A stretch of DNA of 64,000 bases from Phenylobacterium sp. (lineage in GTDB: Bacteria > Pseudomonadota > Alphaproteobacteria > Caulobacterales > Caulobacteraceae). The notes below the pieces were generated by a model, which was not told where the DNA came from, did no database searches, and worked only from the letters and a program-made list of their open reading frames with translations. Shown here one piece after another: positions 21,852 to 37,160 of the stretch (its first letter is position 1; each line of letters starts with the position of its first letter). The DNA is taken from NCBI RefSeq assembly GCF_016124325.1, contig NZ_WGNY01000030.1, positions 1 to 64,000 on the forward strand, given 5' to 3'. The position numbers and the translations under genes were made by a program.

Positions 21852-24584
21852 CTACTTCTCGGTGAGGTTCCAGACGCCGTCCCAGTCGGCGGGCGGCGGG
21901 GTCGCGGCCAGCACGGCGCAGCGCTCGCGGTAGACCCCGGCGGGCCCATCGTCGGGATAGAGCTCCAGCGCCGCGTCGAAGGCCGCGGCCGCCCGCGCCC
22001 AGTCGCGGTCGCGATAGGCCGCGAGGCCGGCGGCGTGCAGGTCGAGCAGCGCGGTCAGCGCGGGCTCGCCCGCCCGGTAGCCCAGCGACTCGTAGACCGC
22101 CACCGGCCGGTCCTTGCCCTTCACCCGCATCAGGTCGATCTCGCGCAGGATCGCCGGTCCCTTCAGGTCGCGCACCGTCATCTCCGACAGCAGCACGCCG
22201 GCGCGGTACTGCTTGGTCGCGCCTTCCAGCCGCGAGGCGAGGTTCACCGTGTCGCCGATCACCGTGTAGTCGAGGCGCCGGGCCGAGCCGATGTTGCCCA
22301 CCACCGTGGGGCCGGTGGAGAAGCCGATGCCGATGGCCAGCGCCGCCTCGCCCGCCTCGGCGCGCCGGGCGTTCAGGACGGCCAGTCGGCCCATCATGGC
22401 GTCGGCCGCGGCCAGCGCGTTGTCGGCGTCGCCGTCGCCCACCAGCGGCGCGCCGAACAGGGCCATCATCCCGTCGCCGATGTATTTGTCGAGGATGCCG
22501 CCGTGGTCGAAGATCACCTCGACCATCTCGGTGAAATAGGCGTTCAGCAGCGACACCGTCTGGCGCGGCCCCAGCGCCTCGGCGATGGCGGTGAAGCCGC
22601 GCACGTCGGTGAACATCACCGTCACCTTCTGCTCCTTGCCGCCCAGCTCCAGCTCGCCGGCGGCCAGCAGCTGGTCGGCCACCTCCTTGCTCATGTAGCG
22701 GCTCATGGTGGAGCGGATGCGCTTCTCCTCGGTGATGTCCTCCAGCACCAGCATCGAGCCGATACGCGCCTCGCCGGCGTCGATCAGCGGCATGGCGGTG
22801 AGGTTCACCGTCGCGCCGGTTCCGTCCGGGCGGCGGATCTCGGCGTCGATGGCCAGCGCCGTCTCGCCGGTCGCCTGGGTCTTGCCGAGGCTCTCCAGGA
22901 TCCAGTCGTTGTCGCCCCAGAACGCCACCTCGGCGGGCTTGCCGGCCATGGCCTCGCGCGGCGCGCCCAGCAGCGCCTGGGCCGCATCGTTGACCGTCAC
23001 CACCTTGCCGTCGGCGTCCAGGGTGACGATGCCGTTCGACGTGCTCTTCAGGATGCTCTCGTTGTAGTTCTTGGTGGTCAGCACGTCGTCGAACAGCTTG
23101 GCGTTCTCCAGGCTCACCGCCACCTGCGCCGCGAAGGCCTTCAGGCGCGACTCGTCCTTGGCCGTGAAGGCGCCGCCGCGCTTGTTCAGCGCCTGGGCCA
23201 CGCCCACTCGCGCCCCGGCCTTGTTGGTGATCGGCACGCACAGGATGCTGCGGGTCACGAAGCCCGTGCGCTGATCCACGTCGCGGTTGAAGCGCGCGTC
23301 GGCGTAGGGGTCGGAGATGTTCTCGGTGCGGCCGGTGGTGAACACCGCCCCGGCGATGCCGCTGGCCGTCGACACCCGGATCTGCCGTGTCTCCAGCCCG
23401 TCGGCGTAGAGGGTGAACAGCTCGTCGGCCTTCTCGTCGTAGACGAACAGCGAGGCGCGTTCGGCGTTCAGGAGCTGCGTCGTCGCCGTCATGATACGCG
23501 CGATCAGCACCTCCAGCAGCAGCTCGCCGGCGAGGTCCTGGGTCACCTCCAGGATCTGCTGCTCCTCGCGCAGGGCGTCGAGCATCAGGGAGAAGCCGCG
23601 GTTGATCTCGGCGTATTCGTCGGTGGTCAGCACGTCGAGCTCGGCCTCGTCCAGCCGGCCGCCCTCCACGTGGCGCATGGCGTCCACCAGCCGCGCCGCC
23701 GAGTGGCTGACCTCGCGCGCGGTCAGGATCGCCATGGCCACCGCCCCCACGACGCAGACGAGCACCACCCCGCTGCCCCATAGGTAAAGCGACGTCAGCT
23801 CGCCCGCCGGCACCACGAAGCCATGGGCCTGGAGCATCCGGTCGAACTTGAACAGGAACGAGGCCACCGCGAACACCAGCGGCAGCGACGAGACGAACAC
23901 CGCCAGGAACAGCACCTTGTTGCGCAACGGCACCGCGATCAGGCGCTTCGCCTGCTCGGGCGGGATGGGCCCGTCCAGCGCGCGCCACAGGCGGATCGCC
24001 ACCGGCTCGATGGCCTTGCTGACGGCGAAGAACTCGAAGATCGCGTGCGCCGGCGAGGCGAAGACGAAGATCATCGTTCCCAGCGCCACCAGCTGCCACA
24101 TGGCGATCCCGGCCTGGAAGAAGGTGTTCAGGACCACGATCACCCCCACCAGCGACAGGGTCGCCGCCGGGCCGTGCAGGGCGATCACCCGCACCGCCGA
24201 CATCTGGGGAAGGTTCAGCGCCCGCACCACGGCCGCCCCCAGCGCCGCGTCGCTGGGCCGCTCGCCGCGGTCCAGGGCGGCGAGCACGCTCGACACCGGG
24301 CGCAGATGGAGGCTGATGGCGAAGAAGTCGAGCGAGGTGAAGAACGCCGTGCCGAACGGCACCGCCATCCAGAAGATCAACCATTGGCGGGGCGTGAATT
24401 CCAGGCCCAGCAGGCCCAGAAGCAGGGTCAGCGAGACGGCCGCGCCCGTGGCCGCCGAATAGATGCCGATCAGCCGCCAGAACAGCGCGCGGCCGGAATC
24501 GACCTTCCGGTCGGTCGCCTGCGGCGACGGGGCGAGCGGCATCAGGGCGTTCAACCGCCCCGCCTCCGCCGTGTCGCCCCGCAC
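21852..24584 (-). CDS. membrane adenylate/guanylate cyclase with HAMP, GAF and PAS domains
   Basis: 910 residues. The N-terminal ~300 residues hold about six hydrophobic segments (for example SLTLLLGLLGLEF, ATLSLVGVIVVLNTFF). A HAMP-like linker (REVSHSAARLVDAMRHVEGG), a GAF domain (about 355-500, NAERASLFVYDEKADELFTLYADG), a PAS domain (about 515-625, STSNGIVTLDADGKVVTVND) and the class III cyclase domain (FTDVRGFTAIAE near 660, KYIGDGMMALFG near 705) follow. Both metal Asp residues are present. The C-terminal ~60 residues look like a TPR. It should make a cyclic nucleotide in response to a small molecule or redox input. The GTG start at 24584 is uncertain; an ATG at 24542 is an alternative. 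Confidence 0.85.
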   Translation of the reverse strand: MRGDTAEAGRLNALMPLAPSPQATDRKVDSGRALFWRLIGIYSAATGAAVSLTLLLGLLGLEFTPRQWLIFWMAVPFGTAFFTSLDFFAISLHLRPVSSVLAALDRGERPSDAALGAAVVRALNLPQMSAVRVIALHGPAATLSLVGVIVVLNTFFQAGIAMWQLVALGTMIFVFASPAHAIFEFFAVSKAIEPVAIRLWRALDGPIPPEQAKRLIAVPLRNKVLFLAVFVSSLPLVFAVASFLFKFDRMLQAHGFVVPAGELTSLYLWGSGVVLVCVVGAVAMAILTAREVSHSAARLVDAMRHVEGGRLDEAELDVLTTDEYAEINRGFSLMLDALREEQQILEVTQDLAGELLLEVLIARIMTATTQLLNAERASLFVYDEKADELFTLYADGLETRQIRVSTASGIAGAVFTTGRTENISDPYADARFNRDVDQRTGFVTRSILCVPITNKAGARVGVAQALNKRGGAFTAKDESRLKAFAAQVAVSLENAKLFDDVLTTKNYNESILKSTSNGIVTLDADGKVVTVNDAAQALLGAPREAMAGKPAEVAFWGDNDWILESLGKTQATGETALAIDAEIRRPDGTGATVNLTAMPLIDAGEARIGSMLVLEDITEEKRIRSTMSRYMSKEVADQLLAAGELELGGKEQKVTVMFTDVRGFTAIAEALGPRQTVSLLNAYFTEMVEVIFDHGGILDKYIGDGMMALFGAPLVGDGDADNALAAADAMMGRLAVLNARRAEAGEAALAIGIGFSTGPTVVGNIGSARRLDYTVIGDTVNLASRLEGATKQYRAGVLLSEMTVRDLKGPAILREIDLMRVKGKDRPVAVYESLGYRAGEPALTALLDLHAAGLAAYRDRDWARAAAAFDAALELYPDDGPAGVYRERCAVLAATPPPADWDGVWNLTEK

Positions 24585-26452: not shown

Positions 26453-27388
26453 TCAGAACGGGATGGCGGACCGGCGCCGTCGCGCCGCGGCCCAGATCAG
26501 CAGGGCGGCGACCGCCGGGGCGATCCAGAAGTAGGGCAGGGCCATCACCCGGGCGGGATCCACCTGGCCGAAGCTCTCGATCGCCGCCTGCCCCTTGCCT
26601 TCGACGCTGAAGGCCTCGCCGAAGCCGCCGAACAGCGCATAGCCCCCCAGCTTCGCCAGGTTCGAGGTGCCGAACGCCACCCGCTCGAAGACGGCCAGGC
26701 CCACGATGGGCGCCAGCGCCCAGACGATGGCCATGCGCCTGGCCCAGCCCGAGACCAGCAGGAACCAGGCGTGGAGCGGCGACTGCCAGATCGCGTTGAC
26801 CAGGAGACCGTAGGGCAGCACCACCCACATCAGCCCGAGGTTCTCGTGCTTCCACAGCGTGGGCAGGCTGTGGCCGCTCAGGCCCACGATCACCGTGCTC
26901 CAGGCCAGGAACGCGGCCTGGCAGGCCACCACGATCACGTAGGTCAGCACCGGGGTCACCACCATGGGCACGCAGGCCTTGGAGAGCACGGTCGTCAGGT
27001 CCGAGACCGGCAGCGACTTCCAGAACAGCAGGCTGCGGTCGCGCCGCTCGCCGTTCAGCGCCCCCAGGCTGTAGAACGCCGCCACGACGAGCCCGGTCAG
27101 CAGCACGGCCAGCGCCACGAAGCTGTGGCCGGTCATCAGGCGGTCGGCCCGCTTGAGATCGCCGGCTTCGATGGCCGTCATGGCGTGCGGCAGGGTGAAG
27201 CTGCTCAGCAGGAAGCCGGCCAGCGCCAGGGCCGCCACGGCCAGCGGCGCGACGATCACGGCCCGGTTCTCCCAGAGCTCGCGCCGCACCGACCAGTAGA
27301 GCACCCGCATCCAGGGCAGGGGCGCCGGCGCGTGATCCGCGCGCGGCTCGGCCGCGGAGCCGCTGAAGGTGTCGTCGGTCGTGCTCAT
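26453..27388 (-). CDS. ABC-2 type transporter permease
   Basis: 311 residues with about six TM helices and a cytoplasmic N-terminal helix (PWMRVLYWSVRRELWENRAVI) typical of ABC-2 permeases. The conserved LNGERRDRSLLFWKSLPVS loop is the hallmark of the YtrC/GntR-linked subgroup, following the second helix. It overlaps the ATPase stop by 4 bases. The transporter's cargo is unknown; related systems answer cell-wall stress. Confidence 0.85.
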   Translation of the reverse strand: MSTTDDTFSGSAAEPRADHAPAPLPWMRVLYWSVRRELWENRAVIVAPLAVAALALAGFLLSSFTLPHAMTAIEAGDLKRADRLMTGHSFVALAVLLTGLVVAAFYSLGALNGERRDRSLLFWKSLPVSDLTTVLSKACVPMVVTPVLTYVIVVACQAAFLAWSTVIVGLSGHSLPTLWKHENLGLMWVVLPYGLLVNAIWQSPLHAWFLLVSGWARRMAIVWALAPIVGLAVFERVAFGTSNLAKLGGYALFGGFGEAFSVEGKGQAAIESFGQVDPARVMALPYFWIAPAVAALLIWAAARRRRSAIPF

Positions 27389-28266
27389 GCCGCCCTCCCC
27401 TCGCCGGCCATCTCCCGAGGCCGGCCGCCCATCACGGCCACGAACAGGTCGGCGAGGCCCGGCGTCCGCACCTCGCCCAGCGGGGCGAGCCGGGCGCGGT
27501 CCACGCCGTCGAAGATCATCAGGCTGCGGCCGAACACCTGCCGTTCATGGATCGGCTTCAGCGACCGCGCCGAGGCCGCCTGCTCGGGCCCGGCCATCAG
27601 CTCGCAGAAGCGCGCCTCCAGGTCCTCCAGGCTGGCGTCCAGCACCACCCGGCCGCGGTCGAGGAACACCACGTCGGTCAGGATGTGCTCGATCTCGTCC
27701 ACCTGGTGCGTCGAGACCAGGATCGTCCGGCTGCGGTCGAAATAGTCGTTGATCAGCTGGTCGTAGAAGGCCTTGCGGTAGAGCAGGTCGAGGCCCAGCG
27801 TCGGCTCGTCCAGCACCAGGACGCGCGCGTCCACGGCCATCACCAGCGCCAGGTGGAGCTGGGTCACCATCCCCTTCGACAGTTCCCGCACCCGGCTCTC
27901 GCGCCGGATCGTGGTCTTGGCCAGGAACCCCTCGGCCTTGGCCCGGTCGAAGCGGGGGTGGACGCCGGCCATATAGTCCAGCGCCTGCCACACCCTCATC
28001 CAGCGCGGCATCACGGCGACGTCGGCGATGAACGAGACCTCGCCCATCAGCGCGTCGCGCGCGGTCCAGGGGTCGCGGCCCAGCACGGTCAGCCCGCCGT
28101 CGTGCGGGATCAGGCCCAGGATCGCCTGCATGGCCGTGCTCTTGCCGGCGCCGTTCGGGCCGATCAGGCCGACGATGCGGCCCTCGCCCACCGTGAAGTC
28201 GACGCCGCTGAGCGCGGGCGTCTTGCCATAGGCCTTGGAGAGGCCGCGAGCTTCGATCACGCCCAT
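27385..28266 (-). CDS. ABC transporter ATP-binding protein (YtrB type)
   Basis: 293 residues. Walker A is GPNGAGKST, the signature region is RELSKGMVTQLHLALVMA (a degenerate ABC signature usual for this subgroup), and Walker B is RVLVLDEPTLGLD. The switch His is in STHQVDE. It lies 4 bases after the GntR regulator and overlaps the permease start, forming a three-gene operon like ytrABC of Bacillus. Confidence 0.87.
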   Translation of the reverse strand: MGVIEARGLSKAYGKTPALSGVDFTVGEGRIVGLIGPNGAGKSTAMQAILGLIPHDGGLTVLGRDPWTARDALMGEVSFIADVAVMPRWMRVWQALDYMAGVHPRFDRAKAEGFLAKTTIRRESRVRELSKGMVTQLHLALVMAVDARVLVLDEPTLGLDLLYRKAFYDQLINDYFDRSRTILVSTHQVDEIEHILTDVVFLDRGRVVLDASLEDLEARFCELMAGPEQAASARSLKPIHERQVFGRSLMIFDGVDRARLAPLGEVRTPGLADLFVAVMGGRPREMAGEGRAA

Positions 28267-28270
28267 CGCC

Positions 28271-28642
28271 TCAGCCCTCCCCGCGCGTCTTGAACGGGAT
28301 CACGCCCAGCAGCTCCCGGGTCAGTCCCAGGCGCTCGATGGTGGCGCGGATCTCGGGCCACCGCTCGGCCAGGAACTTCTCGCGCTCCCCGGCCAGCAGC
28401 CGTTCGCGCGCGTCCGTGGTGACGAACATCCCCAGCCCCCGTCGCTTCTCCACCAGCCCGTCGTCCGCGAGCTGCTGGTAGGCCTTCATCACCGTCAGCG
28501 GATTGACCCGGCTCTCGGTGGCCACCGCACGCACCGACGGCAGCGGGTCGCCCTCCTTGAGCAGGCCGTCGAGCACCATGGCGACGACCCGGTCGCGGAT
28601 CTGGCGATAGATCGGCTGGCTGTCGTTCCATTCGGGGTCCAT
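28271..28642 (-). CDS. GntR family regulator, YtrA subgroup
   Basis: 123 residues. The winged helix is QPIYRQIRDRVVAMVLDGLLKEGDPLPSVRAVATESRVNPLTVMKAYQQL, with the conserved LPSVR and NP.TV.KAY motifs of the YtrA group. The short ~45-residue C-terminal part is the small dimerisation domain, not an FCD or UTRA effector domain. It is the first gene of the operon and is preceded by the TGTTATA/TATAACA palindrome. Autoregulation is the expected mode. Confidence 0.9.
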   Translation of the reverse strand: MDPEWNDSQPIYRQIRDRVVAMVLDGLLKEGDPLPSVRAVATESRVNPLTVMKAYQQLADDGLVEKRRGLGMFVTTDARERLLAGEREKFLAERWPEIRATIERLGLTRELLGVIPFKTRGEG

Positions 28643-29247: not shown

Positions 29248-29607
29248 CCGCGCCAAGGTCCATGAAGATCGCCGCCAGGCCGCTGGCTACGCGGCGCGGC
29301 GGGCTTCGGAGCCATCAAGGCCTTTCGCTCGCCATGCAGTGGCGTCCAGCCGTCTTATCCACCCCTACTTGAAGTATCGTCGCGAGCCTGTCTCCGGATA
29401 GACCACGAACTCAACTTAGAGTGTTCTCGACGATCGTTCTCGTGATTATATCGGATTGCGAAATACAGTCTTGAGTAAATTTTGGGCATACCCAATATGA
29501 GTAACAGCCCCTGAATTAACTGCGCCAGATCAACGGATCTGGAACCTCGTTCCGCAAAAAGCATGGCGTGCGCCGGGGATGGCGCGTGTGATCCGACGGA
29601 CGCGTTC
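29248..29607. other. long AT-richer intergenic region before the glycan operon, with a palindrome and promoter candidate
   Basis: From about 29370 to 29530 the base composition drops well below the surrounding GC. No ORF here is convincing. A possible promoter is TTGAGT (29471-29476), 17-base spacer, AATATG (29494-29499). Inside the spacer is the perfect inverted repeat TTGGG-CATA-CCCAA (29482-29495), a plausible operator that would cover the promoter. Confidence 0.4.
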
Positions 29608-30756
29608 GTGAAAATTCTATCCGTCTTCGGGACCAGGCCCGAAGTCATCAAGATGGCGCCCGTGCTGCGCGCGCTGGCGCGCGAGCCCGGCGTCGAATCC
29701 GTCGCCTGCGCCACGGGCCAGCATCGCGAGCTGCTGGACCAGACTGCAGCCGAGTTGGGCGTTCGCCCCGACATCGACCTGGCGCTGATGCGACCCGATC
29801 AGACGCTCAACGGCGTAACCGCCGCGGCCATCGAGGCGCTCGACGCAGTGATGGCCCGGGTCGAGCCCGACCGCGTGCTGGTGCACGGCGACACCACCAC
29901 GGCGATGGCCGCCGCCGTGGCAGCCTTTCATCGCCACATCCCGGTGGGCCACGTCGAGGCCGGCCTGCGGACAGGCGACCTCGACCAGCCGTTCCCCGAG
30001 GAGTTCAACCGCCGCGTCGTCGACATGGCGGCCAACCTCCTGTGGGCCCCGACCGAGGAAGCCGCCGACAACCTCCGCGCCGAGCGTCTGGCCGGCCGCA
30101 TCCTCGTCACCGGCAACACCGTCCTCGACGCGCTCGAGTTGGCCGGCGAGCGCCTCGCCGCCGACCCGGCGCCCGGCGCCGAACTGGCCCGCGCCCTGCC
30201 CGGCCTCGATCCCGCCAAACGCCTGGTGCTGGTCACCGCCCACCGGCGCGAGAACTTCGGCGACGGCCTCGACGAGATCTGCGCGGCCCTGATCCAGCTC
30301 GCCAGCCGTCCCGACGTCGAGGTCGTCTATCCGGTCCACCTCAACCCCCACGTTCGCGCCCAGGTGATGGGCCGCCTGCGGGGGCTGGACCAGATCCGCC
30401 TCATCGAGCCTCTGGGCTACCTGGCCTTCGTCGCCCTCATGCGGCGCGCGGCCCTGGTGCTCACCGACTCCGGCGGCGTGCAGGAGGAGGCCCCGGCGCT
30501 CGGCCGGCCCGTGCTGGTCATGCGCGACGCCACCGAGCGGCCCGAGGCGCTGCGGGCCGGCGCCGCCCGCCTCGTGGGCGCCCGCGCCGAGGTTATCGTG
30601 CGCGAGGCCGGCCGGCTGCTCGACGGCGAGGTCCACGCCGTAGCCGCGCCCAACCTCTACGGCGACGGCGCCGCCGCCGAGCGCATCGTCGATTCCATCA
30701 TGGGCCGCCCGGTGAAGCCCTTCGTGGCCGCCCAGGCCTCAACCCTCGCGGCCTAG
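29608..30756 (+). CDS. wecB: UDP-N-acetylglucosamine 2-epimerase (non-hydrolysing)
   Basis: 382 residues from the GTG at 29608, which begins VKILSVFGTRPEVIKMAPVL, the family N-terminus; an ATG at 29563 would add 15 residues with no homologous pattern. Visible motifs are VLVHGDTTTAMAAAV, VGHVEAGLRTGD, PFPEEFNRRVVD, LVTAHRRENFG, VYPVHLNPHVR and LTDSGGVQEEAPALGRPVLVMRD. It interconverts UDP-GlcNAc and UDP-ManNAc in the cytoplasm. It lies 2 bases before nfrB, so the product likely feeds that glycosyltransferase. Confidence 0.93.
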   Translation: MKILSVFGTRPEVIKMAPVLRALAREPGVESVACATGQHRELLDQTAAELGVRPDIDLALMRPDQTLNGVTAAAIEALDAVMARVEPDRVLVHGDTTTAMAAAVAAFHRHIPVGHVEAGLRTGDLDQPFPEEFNRRVVDMAANLLWAPTEEAADNLRAERLAGRILVTGNTVLDALELAGERLAADPAPGAELARALPGLDPAKRLVLVTAHRRENFGDGLDEICAALIQLASRPDVEVVYPVHLNPHVRAQVMGRLRGLDQIRLIEPLGYLAFVALMRRAALVLTDSGGVQEEAPALGRPVLVMRDATERPEALRAGAARLVGARAEVIVREAGRLLDGEVHAVAAPNLYGDGAAAERIVDSIMGRPVKPFVAAQASTLAA

Positions 30757-30758
30757 CG

Positions 30759-32690
30759 ATGACCGACCTCCTCCACACCCTGGCCGCGGGATACGTCGCG
30801 GTGCTCCAGGCCGTCGCCCTGGCCGTGGCGCTCCTCATCGCGGTGTGGGCGGTGGACGACCTGTTCATCTCGGCCAGCTTCTGGTCGGGCCGTCTCCGGA
30901 GGCGCGACGCCCCGCGGCCCACCGACGACGAGCTGCGCGCCGAGCCCGAGGCGCCGATGGCCATACTGATCCCAGCCTGGCGCGAGGCCGACGTGATCGC
31001 GGCCATGCTCGACAGCGCCGTCGCCGCCCTCGACTACGACAACTACGTGATCTTCGTCGGGGTCTATCCCAACGACCCCGAGACCATCGCCGAGGTCGAG
31101 CGTGTACGCCGCCGCACACCACGGGTGGTCCGCGTGGACGCGCCCAACCCGGGGCCGACCTGCAAGGCCGACTGCCTGAACGCGATCATGGCCGGCGTGG
31201 CCGACTACGAGCGCCGCCACAACATGACCTTCGAGGGCTGCGTGCTGCATGACAGCGAGGACGTCCTGCACCCGCTGGAACTGCGCCTGTTCAACCACCA
31301 CCTGCCGGGCCGCGACATGGTCCAGATCCCGGTGATCTCTCTGGAGCGCGGAGCGTTCGACTGGACGGCCGGCGTCTACATGGACGAGTTCGCCGAGTTC
31401 CACGCCAAGGACCTCGTCGTGCGCGGCCGCCTGACCGGCTCGGTCCCCTCCGCGGGCGTGGGCGCCTGCTTCCGCCGTTCGACGCTGAAAGCCCTGCAAG
31501 GCAACCGCGACGGCCCCTTCAACACCGAGAGCCTCACCGAGGACTATGACGTCAGCATGCGCATGGCGGTGGAGGGCTTCACCTCCGTGATCGTCCACCA
31601 TCCGGCGCCCTATCGCACCGTCCGGCGCACGCTGTTCGGCTTCGGGCCGCGCAAGACGGTGACGGTCCGCGCCCCGGTGGCGGTCCGCGAGTACTTCCCC
31701 AACACCTTCCGCACGGCGACGCGTCAGCGGTCGCGCTGGACGCTGGGCATCGCGCTGCAGGGCTGGAGCCAGATCGGCTGGACGCGCTCGCCGGCGCTCA
31801 ACTACTTCCTCCTGCGCGATCGCAAGTCGCTGGCGACGCCGCTGGTCTCGGCCGTCGCCTATCTCGTGCTCGCCAACGGCGTCGTCATGCTGCTGCTGTC
31901 CGGCGTCGGCCTGTTCGACGACCGGCCGTGGATATCGGCCCTGCTGGCGTTCAACCTCTTCGCCTGCCTCGTCGGCCTAGGCCAGCGCGTCTACTTCACC
32001 GGCCGCCTCTACGGCTGGGAGCACGCGGTGCTCTCGATCTTCCGCATCTTCGTCGGCACGGCTGTCAGCGCCGCCGCGGCGATCCGGGCCGTGTGGCAGT
32101 TCACCGTCGGCCGCCTCACCGGGGCCAGGCTCGGCTGGGACAAGACCATGCACGATTTCCCCTCTCCGGCCGTCATCGACCAGCCGCACCGCCGGCTGGG
32201 CGAGCTGCTCGCCGCTTGGGGCGCGGTGGACGCCCGGCAGATCGAGGCGGCGCTGGCCGACAAGGCGCCGGACCGACGCCTGGGCGACGTCCTGCTCGAT
32301 CGCGGCCTGATCGACGAGGACATTCTGGCCGAGGCCCTGGCCGCCCAGTCGAACCTGCCACGCGCCATCTTCGAGCCGCAGCAGGTCCGCGAGGCCGCCC
32401 ACCTGCTGCCCTCCTCGCTCCAGCGCCGCGCCCGCACCGTGCCGCTGGGCGTGCGCAGCGGCGGCGCCCTGATCGTCGCCTCCGACGGCCCCATTCCGCT
32501 GGGCTTCCTCGAGGAGATCCGCCAGGCCTTCGGCGATCGCAACATCGTCCAGCAGATCGCCCGGCGCGGCGAGATCCAGGCCGTCCTCGACGACGCCCCG
32601 TCCCCGCTCGCCCCGCCGCGCGTGCTCACGACCCCGGCCCGCGCCGCCGCCCGTCGCCGCGCCGCGCGACGCCAGGCCCGCGCCTCATGA
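30759..32690 (+). CDS. nfrB: NfrB-like processive glycosyltransferase with C-terminal MshEN c-di-GMP domain
   Basis: 643 residues. A TM helix at 15-35 is followed by the GT2 domain: ILIPAWREADVI (68-80), HDSEDV at 164-169 (acidic metal motif), TEDYD at 260-264 and QRSRW at 323-327 (QxxRW). Several TM helices lie at 360-450. The C-terminus (478-530) has two tandem MshEN-type blocks, RLGELLAAWGAVDARQIEAAL and RLGDVLLDRGLIDEDILAEAL (20-21 residues each), the c-di-GMP-binding signature. E. coli NfrB, with NfrA and WecB, makes an N-acetylmannosamine polymer under c-di-GMP control. The stop overlaps the nfrA start. Confidence 0.88.
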   Translation: MTDLLHTLAAGYVAVLQAVALAVALLIAVWAVDDLFISASFWSGRLRRRDAPRPTDDELRAEPEAPMAILIPAWREADVIAAMLDSAVAALDYDNYVIFVGVYPNDPETIAEVERVRRRTPRVVRVDAPNPGPTCKADCLNAIMAGVADYERRHNMTFEGCVLHDSEDVLHPLELRLFNHHLPGRDMVQIPVISLERGAFDWTAGVYMDEFAEFHAKDLVVRGRLTGSVPSAGVGACFRRSTLKALQGNRDGPFNTESLTEDYDVSMRMAVEGFTSVIVHHPAPYRTVRRTLFGFGPRKTVTVRAPVAVREYFPNTFRTATRQRSRWTLGIALQGWSQIGWTRSPALNYFLLRDRKSLATPLVSAVAYLVLANGVVMLLLSGVGLFDDRPWISALLAFNLFACLVGLGQRVYFTGRLYGWEHAVLSIFRIFVGTAVSAAAAIRAVWQFTVGRLTGARLGWDKTMHDFPSPAVIDQPHRRLGELLAAWGAVDARQIEAALADKAPDRRLGDVLLDRGLIDEDILAEALAAQSNLPRAIFEPQQVREAAHLLPSSLQRRARTVPLGVRSGGALIVASDGPIPLGFLEEIRQAFGDRNIVQQIARRGEIQAVLDDAPSPLAPPRVLTTPARAAARRRAARRQARAS

Positions 32691-33871
32691 TCCGCGCCAT
32701 CCGACTCGGCCTCGCCGCGGTCTCGGCCGCCCTCATGGCGACCGCGGCCGCTCACGCCCAGTCGCCAGCCCCCAGCGCCGAGGGCCGCGCCTACGCCATT
32801 CGCGCCGAGGTGCTCGACCTGGTCGCCGCGGGCCGCAAGGCCGAAGCCCGCACCCGTTTCGACGCCGCGATGGCGGCGGGCGAGCTCGGGCCTTCGCCCG
32901 CCCTCGACCTCGCCATGACCGCCCTGGCCGTCGGCGACGACGACACGGCGCTCGCCGCCTTCGCCCGCGCCCAGAAGACCGGCTCGCTGCCGCCCGCGGC
33001 CGCGCTTGACGCCGCCTATGCCGCCAAGCGCCGGGGTCGCGACGCCACCGCCCTCGCCGATTTCCGCCTCGGCCTCGACGCGGCCCGCGATGGCCAGATC
33101 GAGCTTCCTCCGCAGACCGAGGCCGGGCTGCGCCGCGACTACGCCAACCTCTCGCGCCGGTTCGGCGTCAACGGCTACCTGGGCTACGGCGAAGCCGGCG
33201 TGGCCAACGCCGTCACCCCCTTTCGTGACGCGCGCGGCGTCACCCAGGCCGGGCTGGAGGCCTACGTCCGGCCTTTCGGCTACCGCAATGGCGCGCCCGT
33301 GGAGGTCTTCGCCCGCGCCTTCGAGACCCTGGATGCGCCGGCCGGCGACCCCGAGGGCGGCAAGACCCGGCAGGGCTGGATCGGCGCACGCTGGAAGCCG
33401 CTCTCGGATCAGAACGTCGTGCTGGAAGCCAGCCGCATGGTCCGGCTGGGCCGCCTCGCCCGCAACGACTGGATGGCGCGCGCCGCCTGGTCGGGCGGGA
33501 CCAGCCTCGACGTCGCCGAGCCGCCCGGCCTCCAGCCCATGTGGAGCGCCTACGCCGACGTCGCGCGCATCGTGGACGCTCACCAGACGCTCGCCGTGGC
33601 CGAGACCCGCCTGGGCGCCGTGCTGCGTCCGCACGGCGACCGCAATGGGCTGGTCGTTCCGTTCGTCGGCGCGGCCGCGGGCTACGACAACACCCTGGCG
33701 CGCAAGGGCGCGCTCGGCGCAGGCCCCGGCGTGCAGATTCGTCGATGGTTCAACGCCAGCGACTACGCCGCGCCGCGCTCCTACCTGGACCTGACCGCTC
33801 AATACCGCGTGCGCCTGGCCGGCGACCGGCGCGCCGAGGGCTGGTTCGTGACCCTCGGCGCGTCGTTCTGA
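32687..33871 (+). CDS. nfrA: NfrA-like outer-membrane secretion protein (TPR plus barrel)
   Basis: 394 residues from an ATG overlapping the NfrB stop (ATGA). A signal peptide ends at AHAQ. Residues about 25-140 are alpha-helical with TPR-like repeats (AVGDDDTALAAFARAQKTG, AAYAAKRRGRDATALADF). The rest is beta-rich, ending FVTLGASF with a terminal Phe, and contains NGYLGYGEAG, GWIGARWKPL and DLTAQYRVRLAG, recalling the NfrA C-terminal domain. It is much shorter than E. coli NfrA (about 990 residues). Its inferred role is export of the NfrB polymer across the outer membrane. Confidence 0.75.
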   Translation: MIRAIRLGLAAVSAALMATAAAHAQSPAPSAEGRAYAIRAEVLDLVAAGRKAEARTRFDAAMAAGELGPSPALDLAMTALAVGDDDTALAAFARAQKTGSLPPAAALDAAYAAKRRGRDATALADFRLGLDAARDGQIELPPQTEAGLRRDYANLSRRFGVNGYLGYGEAGVANAVTPFRDARGVTQAGLEAYVRPFGYRNGAPVEVFARAFETLDAPAGDPEGGKTRQGWIGARWKPLSDQNVVLEASRMVRLGRLARNDWMARAAWSGGTSLDVAEPPGLQPMWSAYADVARIVDAHQTLAVAETRLGAVLRPHGDRNGLVVPFVGAAAGYDNTLARKGALGAGPGVQIRRWFNASDYAAPRSYLDLTAQYRVRLAGDRRAEGWFVTLGASF

Positions 33872-33877
33872 ACGCGG

Positions 33878-36800
33878 CTACTTCTGCTCCCACCACCACG
33901 GCGCGCGCTTGTGGTCGCCGGTCACCACCTCGTTCAGCGTCAGGGAGTCGTAAATCCGGCCGCCCACCATCACGCGGCTGACCTTCTCGCTGTTGCGGAT
34001 GTCGGTCGTCGGGTCGGCGTCGATCACCACCAGGTCGGCCAGCTTGCCCGGCTCCAGCGAGCCGATGTCGGCGTCCATGCCCAGCGAGCGCGCCGGCTCG
34101 ATGGTGCCGGCCCGCAAGGCCTCGATCGGGCTCATGCCGCCGCGCACGAACGACCACAGCTCCCAGTGCGGGCCGATGCCGGCCTGCTGGCCGTGGGCGC
34201 CGATCGAGACGTGCACGCCGCGCTTGGCCAGCTTGTGCGCCTCGCGGGCGCTGTCGTCGTCGACGTAGTCCTCCTCGGGCGCGATCGGCCGGCGCACCGT
34301 GTCGGCGGCGAGCTTGGCCGGCGGGGTGTGCGCCGCCACGATCGGCTGCTTCCAGACGTCGGTGTGCGCGCGCCAGTAGGGATCGCCCGAAAGGCCGGAG
34401 AAGGTCACCACCAGGGTGGGCGTGTAGTTGGTCTTGCTCTCGCTGAAGTAGCTCAGCACGTCCTCGTAGAGGTGGAGCTGCGGGATGTTGTGCTCCAGCG
34501 TCGAGTTGCCGTCGGCGATGATGGTCATGTCCTGGCCGAACAGCGAGCCGCCCTCGGCCACCACCTGCATCCCCTCGCGCCGGGCCGCCTCCACGATCTG
34601 CTGGCGCTGGTCGCGGCGCGGCTGGTTGTAGTTCTTGATGCTCAGCGCGCCCTCGGCCTTCAGCCGGCGCACGTGGGCCAGGGCGTCGTCCAGGCTGTTG
34701 ATCTCGGCGTAGTTCCGCGCGGCCTTCGCCCCGTAGACGGGCTCGCCGGTCGAGAAGATGTGCGGCCCCACGATCTTGCCGGTCCGCTGCAGCTCGGCGG
34801 CCTCGTAGACCTCGGCGGCGCGGTTCGACGGGTCGTGGATCGTCGTGGTCCCGAGCGCCAGGTTGACCATCAGCGACCAGTTCTGCTGCGGCACCAGTTC
34901 GTCCACGCCCTGCGGCCCGTGGGCGTGGGCGTCGACCAGGCCGGGGATGATGGTCTTGCCGGTGACGTCGACCACCTTGGCGTCGGCCGGGATCTCCACC
35001 GCGCCGCGCTTGCCGACGGCCACGATGCGCGCGTCGCGCACCACCACCACGCCGTCCTCGATGATCCCGCCGTCGTCGGCCGCCATGGTCACCAGCTTGG
35101 CGCCGGTCAGGGCCACCACGCCGTGCGGGCGGTCGGCGGCCACCTCCATCGATAGCGACACGCCCGAGGTCGGCGGCTCGAACTTCGGCGCGTCCTTGGC
35201 CGGCGGCGCATCGGGGAAGAACTTGGCGGTCTCGGCGGTGAACACCGTCGGGCCGATGCTCCAGTGCAGCTCCGCGCCGCCGTTCGACCAGTGGATCCAG
35301 TCGGCGCCGCCGCGGCTGATCCGCGTCACCGGCAGCGGCCCGCCCTTCAGGTCGACCGGCACGTCCTGGGTCCCGGGCATCAGCGGCATGGCGCTGACCT
35401 CCCAGTTCTGGCGGAAGGCGAAGACCTTGCCGTCCGGGGCGACCGAGTATTCGTTGACCAACTCGCCCTCGGCGTGGACGCGGCGCGCCTCGCCGTTCAG
35501 GTCGACGCTGACGAGCTGCTGCTTGCCCTTCTCCGAGGCGGTCAGGAACAGGCGGTCGTTGGCCGCGCCGAACTGCGGCGCGCCGCCGTCGCGGGTGATC
35601 AGGCTCGCCTCGCCGCCTGCCGCCGGGATCCGGTAGACGCCGGGATTCTCGCCCCAGCGGTTCGAGGTGAGGAACCCGCCCTCGTTCTGCTCGAACACGA
35701 TGGTCCTGCCGTCGGGCGAGAAAGCGGGCCGCGCATAATGGCCCGGATGCCGGGTCACCGCCTTCGGCGTCCCGCCGGCCGCGCCCACCGTCACCACCTG
35801 GCCAAGGCCCGCGTCGGTCCAGGCCACATAGGCGATGGTCTTGCCGTCGCGCGACCACGTCGGCCACAGTTCGAAGCCCGCCTCGTCGCCCTTGGTCAGG
35901 CGCTTCGGCGCGCCCTCGCCCATCGGCTTGATCCACAGCTTGCCCAGGCTCTCGAACACCACCTGCTTGCCGTCGGGCGACACCGCCGCGAAACGGGTCA
36001 TCTTGGTCTGGAACCTGTCGGGCGAGACGGCGACCTTCGGGTGCGGCGGGTCGATCACGCTGCGGCTGTCGGCCACGTGGAACGGGATCACCGCGGCGTT
36101 GGCGCCGTCGGCGTCCACCCGCCGGATCTGGCCGCCGGCCCAGAAGACGAGGCTCTTGGAATCCGGCGTCCAGCCCATGTTGGGATAGACGCCCAGCACG
36201 GCCCAGCCTTCCTGCATGTCGGGATCGAGGCCGTCATAGACCTTGGTCTCGGCGCCCGAAGCCAGGTCCTTCACATAGAGCTTCGACTGCGCCCGCTCGC
36301 GGCGGACGAAGGCGATCTTGGTCCCGTCGGGCGACGGCTGCGGCCGCACCGACCCGCCGGCCCCCGACACGGCGGTGGTCGTCTCGCCGCTGGCCAGGTC
36401 GTAGCGCTCGATGTTGAACAGGTCGGTGTTGGAATCCTGGGCGTATTCGAAGATCGGCCCGGGGGTGACGTTCTTCTCGAAGTAGATCGCCTGGCCGTCG
36501 GGGGCGAAGACCGGCTCGCCCAGCTCCTTCTGGAACACCTCGTTGGGCCGCTTGACCAGCGGCACGCCGGCCCCGCCGCTGACGTGGTAGAGCCAGATCT
36601 CGCCGGTCCCGAGCGAGCGGCCGGTGGTGAAGTGCTTCTTCGCCGCGATGAACCGGCCGTCCGGGCTCCAGGTGGGCTGGTTGACCAGCCGGAAGTCCTC
36701 CTTGGTCACCTGGCGCTTGTCCGACCCGTCGGCGTTCATGATCCAGATGTTGTCGCCGCCGCCGCGGTCGGAGGTGAAGGCGATCCGCTTGCCGTCGGGC

Positions 36801-37087
36801 GAGAACCGCGGCTGGACCTCCCAGGCCAAGCCCTCGGCGATCCGCTTGGGCGTCCCGCCGCCGATCGGCATGAGATAGATGTCGCCCAGCAGGTCGAAGG
36901 CGATCGTCTTCCCGTCCGGGCTGACGTCGAGGTTCATCCAGGTGCCTTCGGTGACGTCCAGCGGCAATTGCCGGATGGTCAGGCCGGGCGGGGCGTTCAC
37001 GTCCCACTTGGGGGCGTCGGCGGCGTCGGCCGCGACGGCGGTGAGGCCGAGCGAAAGCGCGGCTGTGGCGAAAAGCTTGAACTTCAT
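33878..37087 (-). CDS. exported amidohydrolase fused to WD40/PD40-type beta-propellers
   Basis: 1069 residues from the ATG at 37087 (MKFKLFATAALSLGL signal peptide). The first ~680 residues contain at least a dozen PD40/TolB-like blades (FSPDGKRIAFTSDRGGGDNIW, WSPDGRFIAAKKH, FAAVSPDGKQVVFES, FSPDGRTIVFEQNEGG). The C-terminal amidohydrolase domain has the metal motif HAHG, the bridging Lys in SIKNYNQ, His in LEHNIPQLHL and SIGAHGQQ, and the closing PGKLADLVVIDADP. It probably hydrolyses peptides or cyclic amides in the periplasm, after a propeller-guided selection. It is downstream of the M20-like gene by 73 bases. Confidence 0.85.
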   Translation of the reverse strand: MKFKLFATAALSLGLTAVAADAADAPKWDVNAPPGLTIRQLPLDVTEGTWMNLDVSPDGKTIAFDLLGDIYLMPIGGGTPKRIAEGLAWEVQPRFSPDGKRIAFTSDRGGGDNIWIMNADGSDKRQVTKEDFRLVNQPTWSPDGRFIAAKKHFTTGRSLGTGEIWLYHVSGGAGVPLVKRPNEVFQKELGEPVFAPDGQAIYFEKNVTPGPIFEYAQDSNTDLFNIERYDLASGETTTAVSGAGGSVRPQPSPDGTKIAFVRRERAQSKLYVKDLASGAETKVYDGLDPDMQEGWAVLGVYPNMGWTPDSKSLVFWAGGQIRRVDADGANAAVIPFHVADSRSVIDPPHPKVAVSPDRFQTKMTRFAAVSPDGKQVVFESLGKLWIKPMGEGAPKRLTKGDEAGFELWPTWSRDGKTIAYVAWTDAGLGQVVTVGAAGGTPKAVTRHPGHYARPAFSPDGRTIVFEQNEGGFLTSNRWGENPGVYRIPAAGGEASLITRDGGAPQFGAANDRLFLTASEKGKQQLVSVDLNGEARRVHAEGELVNEYSVAPDGKVFAFRQNWEVSAMPLMPGTQDVPVDLKGGPLPVTRISRGGADWIHWSNGGAELHWSIGPTVFTAETAKFFPDAPPAKDAPKFEPPTSGVSLSMEVAADRPHGVVALTGAKLVTMAADDGGIIEDGVVVVRDARIVAVGKRGAVEIPADAKVVDVTGKTIIPGLVDAHAHGPQGVDELVPQQNWSLMVNLALGTTTIHDPSNRAAEVYEAAELQRTGKIVGPHIFSTGEPVYGAKAARNYAEINSLDDALAHVRRLKAEGALSIKNYNQPRRDQRQQIVEAARREGMQVVAEGGSLFGQDMTIIADGNSTLEHNIPQLHLYEDVLSYFSESKTNYTPTLVVTFSGLSGDPYWRAHTDVWKQPIVAAHTPPAKLAADTVRRPIAPEEDYVDDDSAREAHKLAKRGVHVSIGAHGQQAGIGPHWELWSFVRGGMSPIEALRAGTIEPARSLGMDADIGSLEPGKLADLVVIDADPTTDIRNSEKVSRVMVGGRIYDSLTLNEVVTGDHKRAPWWWEQK

Positions 37088-37160
37088 GGAGGGCCCCTCA
37101 TGGAAGCCGCCATGACTAGCAAGCAGGGCCGGGGGTGGGAACCGCGAGGCCCGCCCCGAC

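Follow-up and report, generated by a model that had tools for sequence, protein, structure and literature searches.

A compact wecB-nfrB-nfrA operon in Phenylobacterium probably encodes a reduced NfrBA-type exopolysaccharide machine

Within a 64,000-nucleotide stretch of the genome of a Phenylobacterium sp. (contig NZ_WGNY01000030.1; hereafter the window), we identified a three-gene operon, wecB-nfrB-nfrA, which very probably represents a complete, reduced exopolysaccharide machine of the NfrBA (NGR-like) type. An initial annotation of the sequence had proposed such a WecB/NfrB/NfrA pathway in one operon, and the family scores, conserved residues, predicted folds and gene joints that we obtained all point the same way. 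The computed basis of this reading consists of homology, residue conservation, predicted fold, gene coupling and the presence in the genome of a single PF02350 epimerase and a single MshEN protein; catalysis, activation by c-di-GMP, polymer composition, export and expression are what we infer. Briefly, in the proposed mechanism WecB would convert UDP-GlcNAc to UDP-ManNAc, and NfrB, a BcsA-like synthase, would polymerise a ManNAc-based sugar and move the chain across the inner membrane once c-di-GMP binds its MshEN array. NfrA, forming a pore from a TPR region and a 12-strand barrel, would then export the chain across the outer membrane. The pathway, its control by c-di-GMP and its linkage to wecB have already been published, and the window holds an ordinary family member in a trimmed form. 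The modest news lies in the shortest intact NfrA of our comparison, in an NfrB without a second MshEN-like array but with a first array that fits both motifs, and in the absence of YbcH-like and BcsB-like genes.

All three genes lie on the + strand. The first, wecB (nfrC), encodes a non-hydrolysing UDP-GlcNAc 2-epimerase (29563..30756); nfrB encodes a 643-residue membrane GT2 glycosyltransferase with a C-terminal MshEN c-di-GMP domain (30759..32690); and nfrA encodes a predicted outer-membrane exporter of 394 residues with an N-terminal signal-like helix (32687..33871). As first described, the genes adjoin one another: all three reading frames are open, wecB and nfrB are separated by a 2-base gap, and nfrB and nfrA overlap in an ATGA. 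The span originally given for the operon, 29471..33871, is correct at its 3' end, while its start falls ~90 bases 5' of where this frame has its first start codon. The protein resembles WecB from residue 16 onwards, corresponding to the GTG at 29608, and this GTG may therefore be the true start of wecB. A simple scan of the operon region revealed no sigma-70-like promoter or terminator, and an Rfam search of the same region returned no match.

WecB scored well above the cut-off of the wecB equivalog model TIGR00236 (425 bits versus 210) and is 51% identical to E. coli WecB over 369 positions. The two proteins are identical at all 12 positions compared, which we picked as presumed active-site or nucleotide-site residues. 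The family score and these identical positions predict that WecB supplies UDP-ManNAc. The genome, rated 100% complete, encodes no other PF02350 epimerase, and this fits the statement that organisms lacking another epimerase have one adjoining nfrB (PMC8669469).

NfrB matched the glycosyl transferase model NF012033 (732 bits, cut-off 537) and shares 37% identity with E. coli NfrB over 623 positions. It comprises a GT2 catalytic domain (residues 66-329, 30954..31745, + strand; PF13641, 121 bits), membrane helices and an MshEN tail. The GT2 signatures are present as D165 of the DxD-type HDSED, TED at 260-262 and QxxRW at 323-327 (Q323, R326 and W327). Aligning the two proteins mapped D169, D267 and W330 of E. 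coli NfrB, which are required for plating of phage N4 (PMC8669469, PMC8669472), onto identical residues in the window protein. An AlphaFold2 model built from 40 of the 81 available aligned rows had a pLDDT of 88.6, and its top PDB matches were cellulose synthase BcsA (5ej1/4p00); the modelled tail matched MshE with bound c-di-GMP (5htl) with a TM-score of 0.79-0.80 by target length. NfrB fell below the strict E. coli NfrB equivalog model NF008411 (535 bits, cut-off 1170), as did all seven other non-E. coli homologues scanned, and NfrA fell below the phage-receptor equivalog NF007302 (24 bits, cut-off 1223). Because both cut-offs were missed, NfrB and NfrA are, by sequence, members of their families and not E. 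coli-type equivalogs.

The window NfrB also departs from its relatives at 20 alignment columns common to at least 95% of the other rows, compared with at most five departures in any other of the 40 rows, although the choice of best hits from other families as the other rows favours a high count for the window. These departures include Y180H, L181H and S239R. Together with the long branch of this protein in our NfrB tree (length 1.49), they indicate that its substrate or activity could have drifted. The same machine, with a fast-evolving NfrB that has changed its donor, might then make a mixed or non-ManNAc glycan, and even in E. coli the ManNAc polymer has only been postulated (PMC8669472). 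We regard a different polymer as rather unlikely, given that wecB, the one PF02350 epimerase gene of the genome, directly adjoins nfrB and that the catalytic signatures of NfrB are intact.

The MshEN tail of NfrB had initially been annotated with two c-di-GMP motifs at residues 478-530, and we placed them at 479-502 (motif I) and 507-530 (motif II). The MshE-type c-di-GMP motif model NF053729 matched this array at 479-530 (32193..32348, + strand) with 43.5 bits (cut-off 38). Pfam MshEN (PF05157) matched the C-subdomain that follows, at residues 543-612 (32385..32594, + strand; 28.6 bits, cut-off 23.1), a family that no other protein of the genome matched. We scored the array with strict and relaxed patterns of the 24-residue MshEN motif after Wang et al. 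2016 (PMC5013675). Motif I, starting at residue 479, fits the relaxed pattern and motif II, at 507, the strict one; shuffled NfrB sequences (2000 shuffles per pattern) gave 0.003 chance matches each for the relaxed pattern and none for the strict. The last residue of motif I is Lys, versus the usual Gln, and is Arg in E. coli NfrB. When the blocks were aligned for c-di-GMP-binding residues, six of seven E. coli positions proved identical (the counterparts of L490, G491, L509, L518, G519 and L537), with Ile in place of L505.

Changes at G491, G519 and L490/L537 of E. coli NfrB reduce N4 plating (PMC8669469, PMC8669472), and for several further single substitutions in the c-di-GMP site no effect on N4 was seen (PMC8669472). 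Since several such changes are harmless in E. coli, conservation of these residues alone is no proof of control. For a fragment of E. coli NfrB (residues 414-745) containing the two arrays of that protein, a Kd of 1 uM for c-di-GMP has been reported (PMC8669469). The window genome encodes eight GGDEF domains and can therefore make c-di-GMP.

Comparing tails across the family set the window protein apart. Among 90 NfrBs with readable tails, no other has both motifs of the first array fitting the relaxed pattern; 78 have motif II without motif I, and 11 have neither. In most of the aligned NfrB rows inspected, the turn position of motif I is Gln, not Gly. With a home-made profile at a permissive threshold, 68 of the 90 proteins showed a second MshEN-like array close to the C-terminus; none was called in the window NfrB. 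NCBIfam models detected this second array in seven of nine proteins scanned, E. coli NfrB included, with the window protein and that of locus L020 as the two exceptions. The text of PMC8669469 contains neither 'second MshEN' nor 'two MshEN'. Following the WDKT motif, the window tail extends for 183 residues, as against 227-295 in 80 of the 90 NfrBs. Other short tails occur in six Achromobacter proteins (89-100 residues), in L058 (188) and in L076 (181, cut by a contig end), and one protein, L077, has a longer tail of 347. We considered a frameshift as the cause of the short tail and rejected it, as the frame is unbroken up to the ATGA joint.

One conjecture, which we advance tentatively and think has less than an even chance of being right, is that most NfrBs, having two MshEN-like arrays (the second one weak), may sense c-di-GMP at two sites, and that the window lineage dropped the second array, with the first retaining or regaining its canonical Gly and RLG residues. 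If so, the window would hold a natural one-site, three-gene minimal exporter, with the second array, most TPRs, the BcsB-like protein and YbcH being dispensable.

NfrA matched the Pfam family NfrA_C (PF13283) with 136 bits (cut-off 25). Its AlphaFold2 model (38 rows; mean pLDDT 91.6, pTM 0.85) contains a periplasmic helical region of seven helices, or ~3.5 TPR-like units, at residues 31-156 (32777..33154, + strand), followed by a 12-stranded beta-barrel at residues 159-393 (33161..33865, + strand). Pfam TPR models found no match in this protein, and the TPR label is a prediction from the model and from relatives. The best solved structures were two entries of the cellulose exporter BcsC (E 4e-08 and 9e-08), with low TM-scores of 0.46 and 0.49 by query length; a PDB sequence search with NfrA gave no match up to E 0.1, so the correspondence is by fold only. 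Lower in the ranking came PelBC and a 'bacterial polysaccharide outer membrane secretin', alongside numerous barrels with other functions. These last included FapF, OpcA, Tsx and autotransporters, as might be expected if the protein were a general porin or autotransporter-like barrel that lies beside nfrB by chance. We consider this extremely improbable in view of the PF13283 score, the helical front, the ATGA coupling to nfrB and the best match to BcsC, and on the family score, the helical front and the BcsC match we rejected an unrelated porin. The barrel protein is thus NfrA-like, as had been claimed.

The initial estimate that NfrA has about 40% of the length of its E. coli counterpart also held (394 of 990 residues). 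An alignment with the last 340 residues of E. coli NfrA, which takes in part of the helical region, gave 71 identities in 315 shared positions, and all 12 strands of the window protein find E. coli counterparts. Because the window barrel can be aligned throughout with that of E. coli, the sequence alignment places the missing part in front of the barrel, where E. coli has TPRs, and not in the barrel itself. Judged from the model, the periplasmic helices would be few for reaching the inner-membrane synthase. To compare lengths, we took the 84 loci with both nfrA and nfrB, assigned starts by script and removed nine that were cut off, broken or unsure in their starts. The window NfrA is the shortest of the 75 judged intact; the next shortest are proteins of 400 and 401 residues from two members of its own family, followed by proteins of 448-504 residues. 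In two own-family loci (L012:7008-9008 and L013:7647-9649), a separate 255-residue TPR gene follows nfrB and precedes an NfrA gene of 400-401 residues.

To place the operon among its relatives, we scanned named genomes with an NfrB alignment and examined the best 80 of at least 572 loci. Home-made profiles detected wecB in 68 of these 80, nfrA in 75, a YbcH-like gene in 59 and a BcsB-like gene in 73, and Pfam confirmed BcsB in all seven loci tested. The BcsB-like gene (~737 residues) usually sits between wecB and nfrB, for example at L034:3758-5962 and L041:3748-5958, and is found in most of L030-L109. These profile matches suggest that the usual proteobacterial nfr machine includes a BcsB-type periplasmic partner; neither the window nor the nfr operon of E. 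coli has one. Sellner et al. had previously described BcsB homologues in Achromobacter (PMC8669472). The seven loci of the best 80 without a BcsB-like gene come from four Erythrobacteraceae, two Collimonas and one Comamonas. Neither PF03170 (BcsB) nor PF14488 (DUF4434, YbcH) had a match in the window genome, and in E. coli N4 infection does not require YbcH (PMC8669469). In three Xanthobacter loci (L051, L061 and L072), nfrB is accompanied by a YbcH-like gene and NfrA was not detected in the stretch; these loci may therefore use another exporter.

The nine own-family stretches with nfrB all contain wecB, close by on the same strand in eight and on the opposite strand in one (L028). No BcsB-like or YbcH-like gene was called in any of the nine, but in three of them (L018, L020 and L029) the contig breaks off within or ahead of nfrA, and the calls there extend only to the break. 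For two of these three genomes, the other contig end was also covered: that of G148 (L017) has no YbcH-like gene, and in that of G005 (L019) one directly follows nfrA, scoring weakly with Pfam DUF4434 (22.6, cut-off 30). Each reduced feature of the window occurs elsewhere, and only their combination is particular to it.

We built the NfrB tree from 69 of 91 sequences, leaving out 21 near-duplicates and one fragment. The window NfrB falls in a group of eight (support 99/99) with three own-family and four Erythrobacteraceae proteins; its branch is the long one noted above, and the tree program warns that the place of such a row is unsure. Five other own-family NfrBs form a separate group, which suggests two Nfr lineages within the family. 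Few of these bacteria have the system: PF13283 occurs in eight of 199 own-family genomes and in 13 of 385 genomes of the class, and NfrB was found at E 1e-60 in five of 101 genomes of the genus, each count including the window genome. Among 14 control genomes, E. coli was the only one with PF13283; Caulobacter vibrioides had no match.

The short NfrA, the short NfrB tail, the long NfrB branch and the rarity within the genus would also be expected of a decaying operon, in which loss of the second array, TPR units, BcsB-like protein and YbcH reflects degeneration and not streamlining. We think this unlikely. The operon retains three open frames with tight joints, intact catalytic residues and most binding residues, as well as the only first array among 90 NfrBs with both motifs fitting the MshEN pattern. 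NfrA departs at just one conserved column, the Erythrobacteraceae kin combine a short NfrA with the same lack of BcsB-like and YbcH-like genes in the stretch, and, as noted, E. coli can do without YbcH for N4 infection. We take it to be a genuine NfrBA/WecB operon in reduced form that probably works.

On its 3' side, nfrA faces a large convergent gene on the - strand encoding a PD40 beta-propeller fused to an amidohydrolase (33878-37090), which ends at 33878. Relatives of this amidohydrolase in two genus members (L126 and L127) have no nfr gene within the 13-kb stretch around them, and when these stretches were compared as empty sites with the other neighbours in the window, nothing aligned except a weak ABC match, so no clean empty site emerged. 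On the 5' side of wecB is a GreA/GreB-like gene (+ strand), and upstream of the operon lies a gntR-ABC ATPase-presumed permease set on the - strand (26453-28642), whose presumed permease had no Pfam match. Genes resembling this set also occur near the nfr operon of the genus member G148 (L018), in another relative orientation, which hints that the nfr locus is old in the genus and not a recent import. Recent import marked by unusual base composition was rejected: in 500-base windows, the GC content of the operon is 0.68-0.78, versus 0.68-0.76 in the left flank and 0.70-0.73 in the right, with lower values (0.60-0.66) only just upstream of wecB. A class III nucleotide cyclase with GAF and PAS domains is encoded at 21852-24584 on the - strand.

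Among the closest known systems is the NGR system of E. coli K-12 (NfrB-NfrA-YbcH with WecB), the N4 receptor. It shares with the window a GT2 synthase with MshEN, an NfrA_C barrel behind a helical/TPR front, WecB, the catalytic signatures and most c-di-GMP residues. In E. coli, however, wecB lies in the distant ECA cluster and not inside the operon, NfrA has 990 residues (394 in the window) and NfrB 745 (643), and NfrB carries the second array; the window genome, as described, has no DUF4434 match. The wecB - bcsB-like - nfrB - nfrA (- ybcH) clusters of Pseudomonas, Burkholderiales, Achromobacter and others have the same core genes and differ by their BcsB-like gene. The Erythrobacteraceae loci (L030, L033, L046 and L108), which in the tree lie closer to the window NfrB than any other named loci, resemble the window in lacking BcsB-like and YbcH-like genes in the stretch and in a short NfrA of 448-452 residues, but have no wecB within the stretch and a longer NfrB tail (234-239 versus 183 residues). 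The BcsA/BcsC cellulose and PelBC systems are similar in the fold of the synthase and of the TPR-barrel exporter, but belong to separate sequence families, and BcsA senses c-di-GMP through PilZ, whereas NfrB carries MshEN. Homologues of NfrB linked to wecB, occasionally in alphaproteobacteria, were already reported by Junkermeier & Hengge 2021. NfrB is mentioned in none of the 10 papers covered, out of 682 open-licence papers touching on Caulobacter, Phenylobacterium, Brevundimonas or Erythrobacter.

By analogy with E. coli, a phage-receptor role for the operon is plausible; the N4-like Caulobacter phage Circe requires smooth LPS, its proposed receptor. Our comparison brings out the BcsB-like gene in the usual cluster, as judged from the best 80 of at least 572 relatives, and the frequent second MshEN-like array in NfrB. 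It also suggests that a c-di-GMP-controlled Nfr pathway is present in a bacterial family in which it is rare, and in the smallest form met among the loci compared. The operon would thus offer a convenient model for a minimal machine of this kind, and its product might serve these bacteria as a surface glycan and their phages as an adsorption site.
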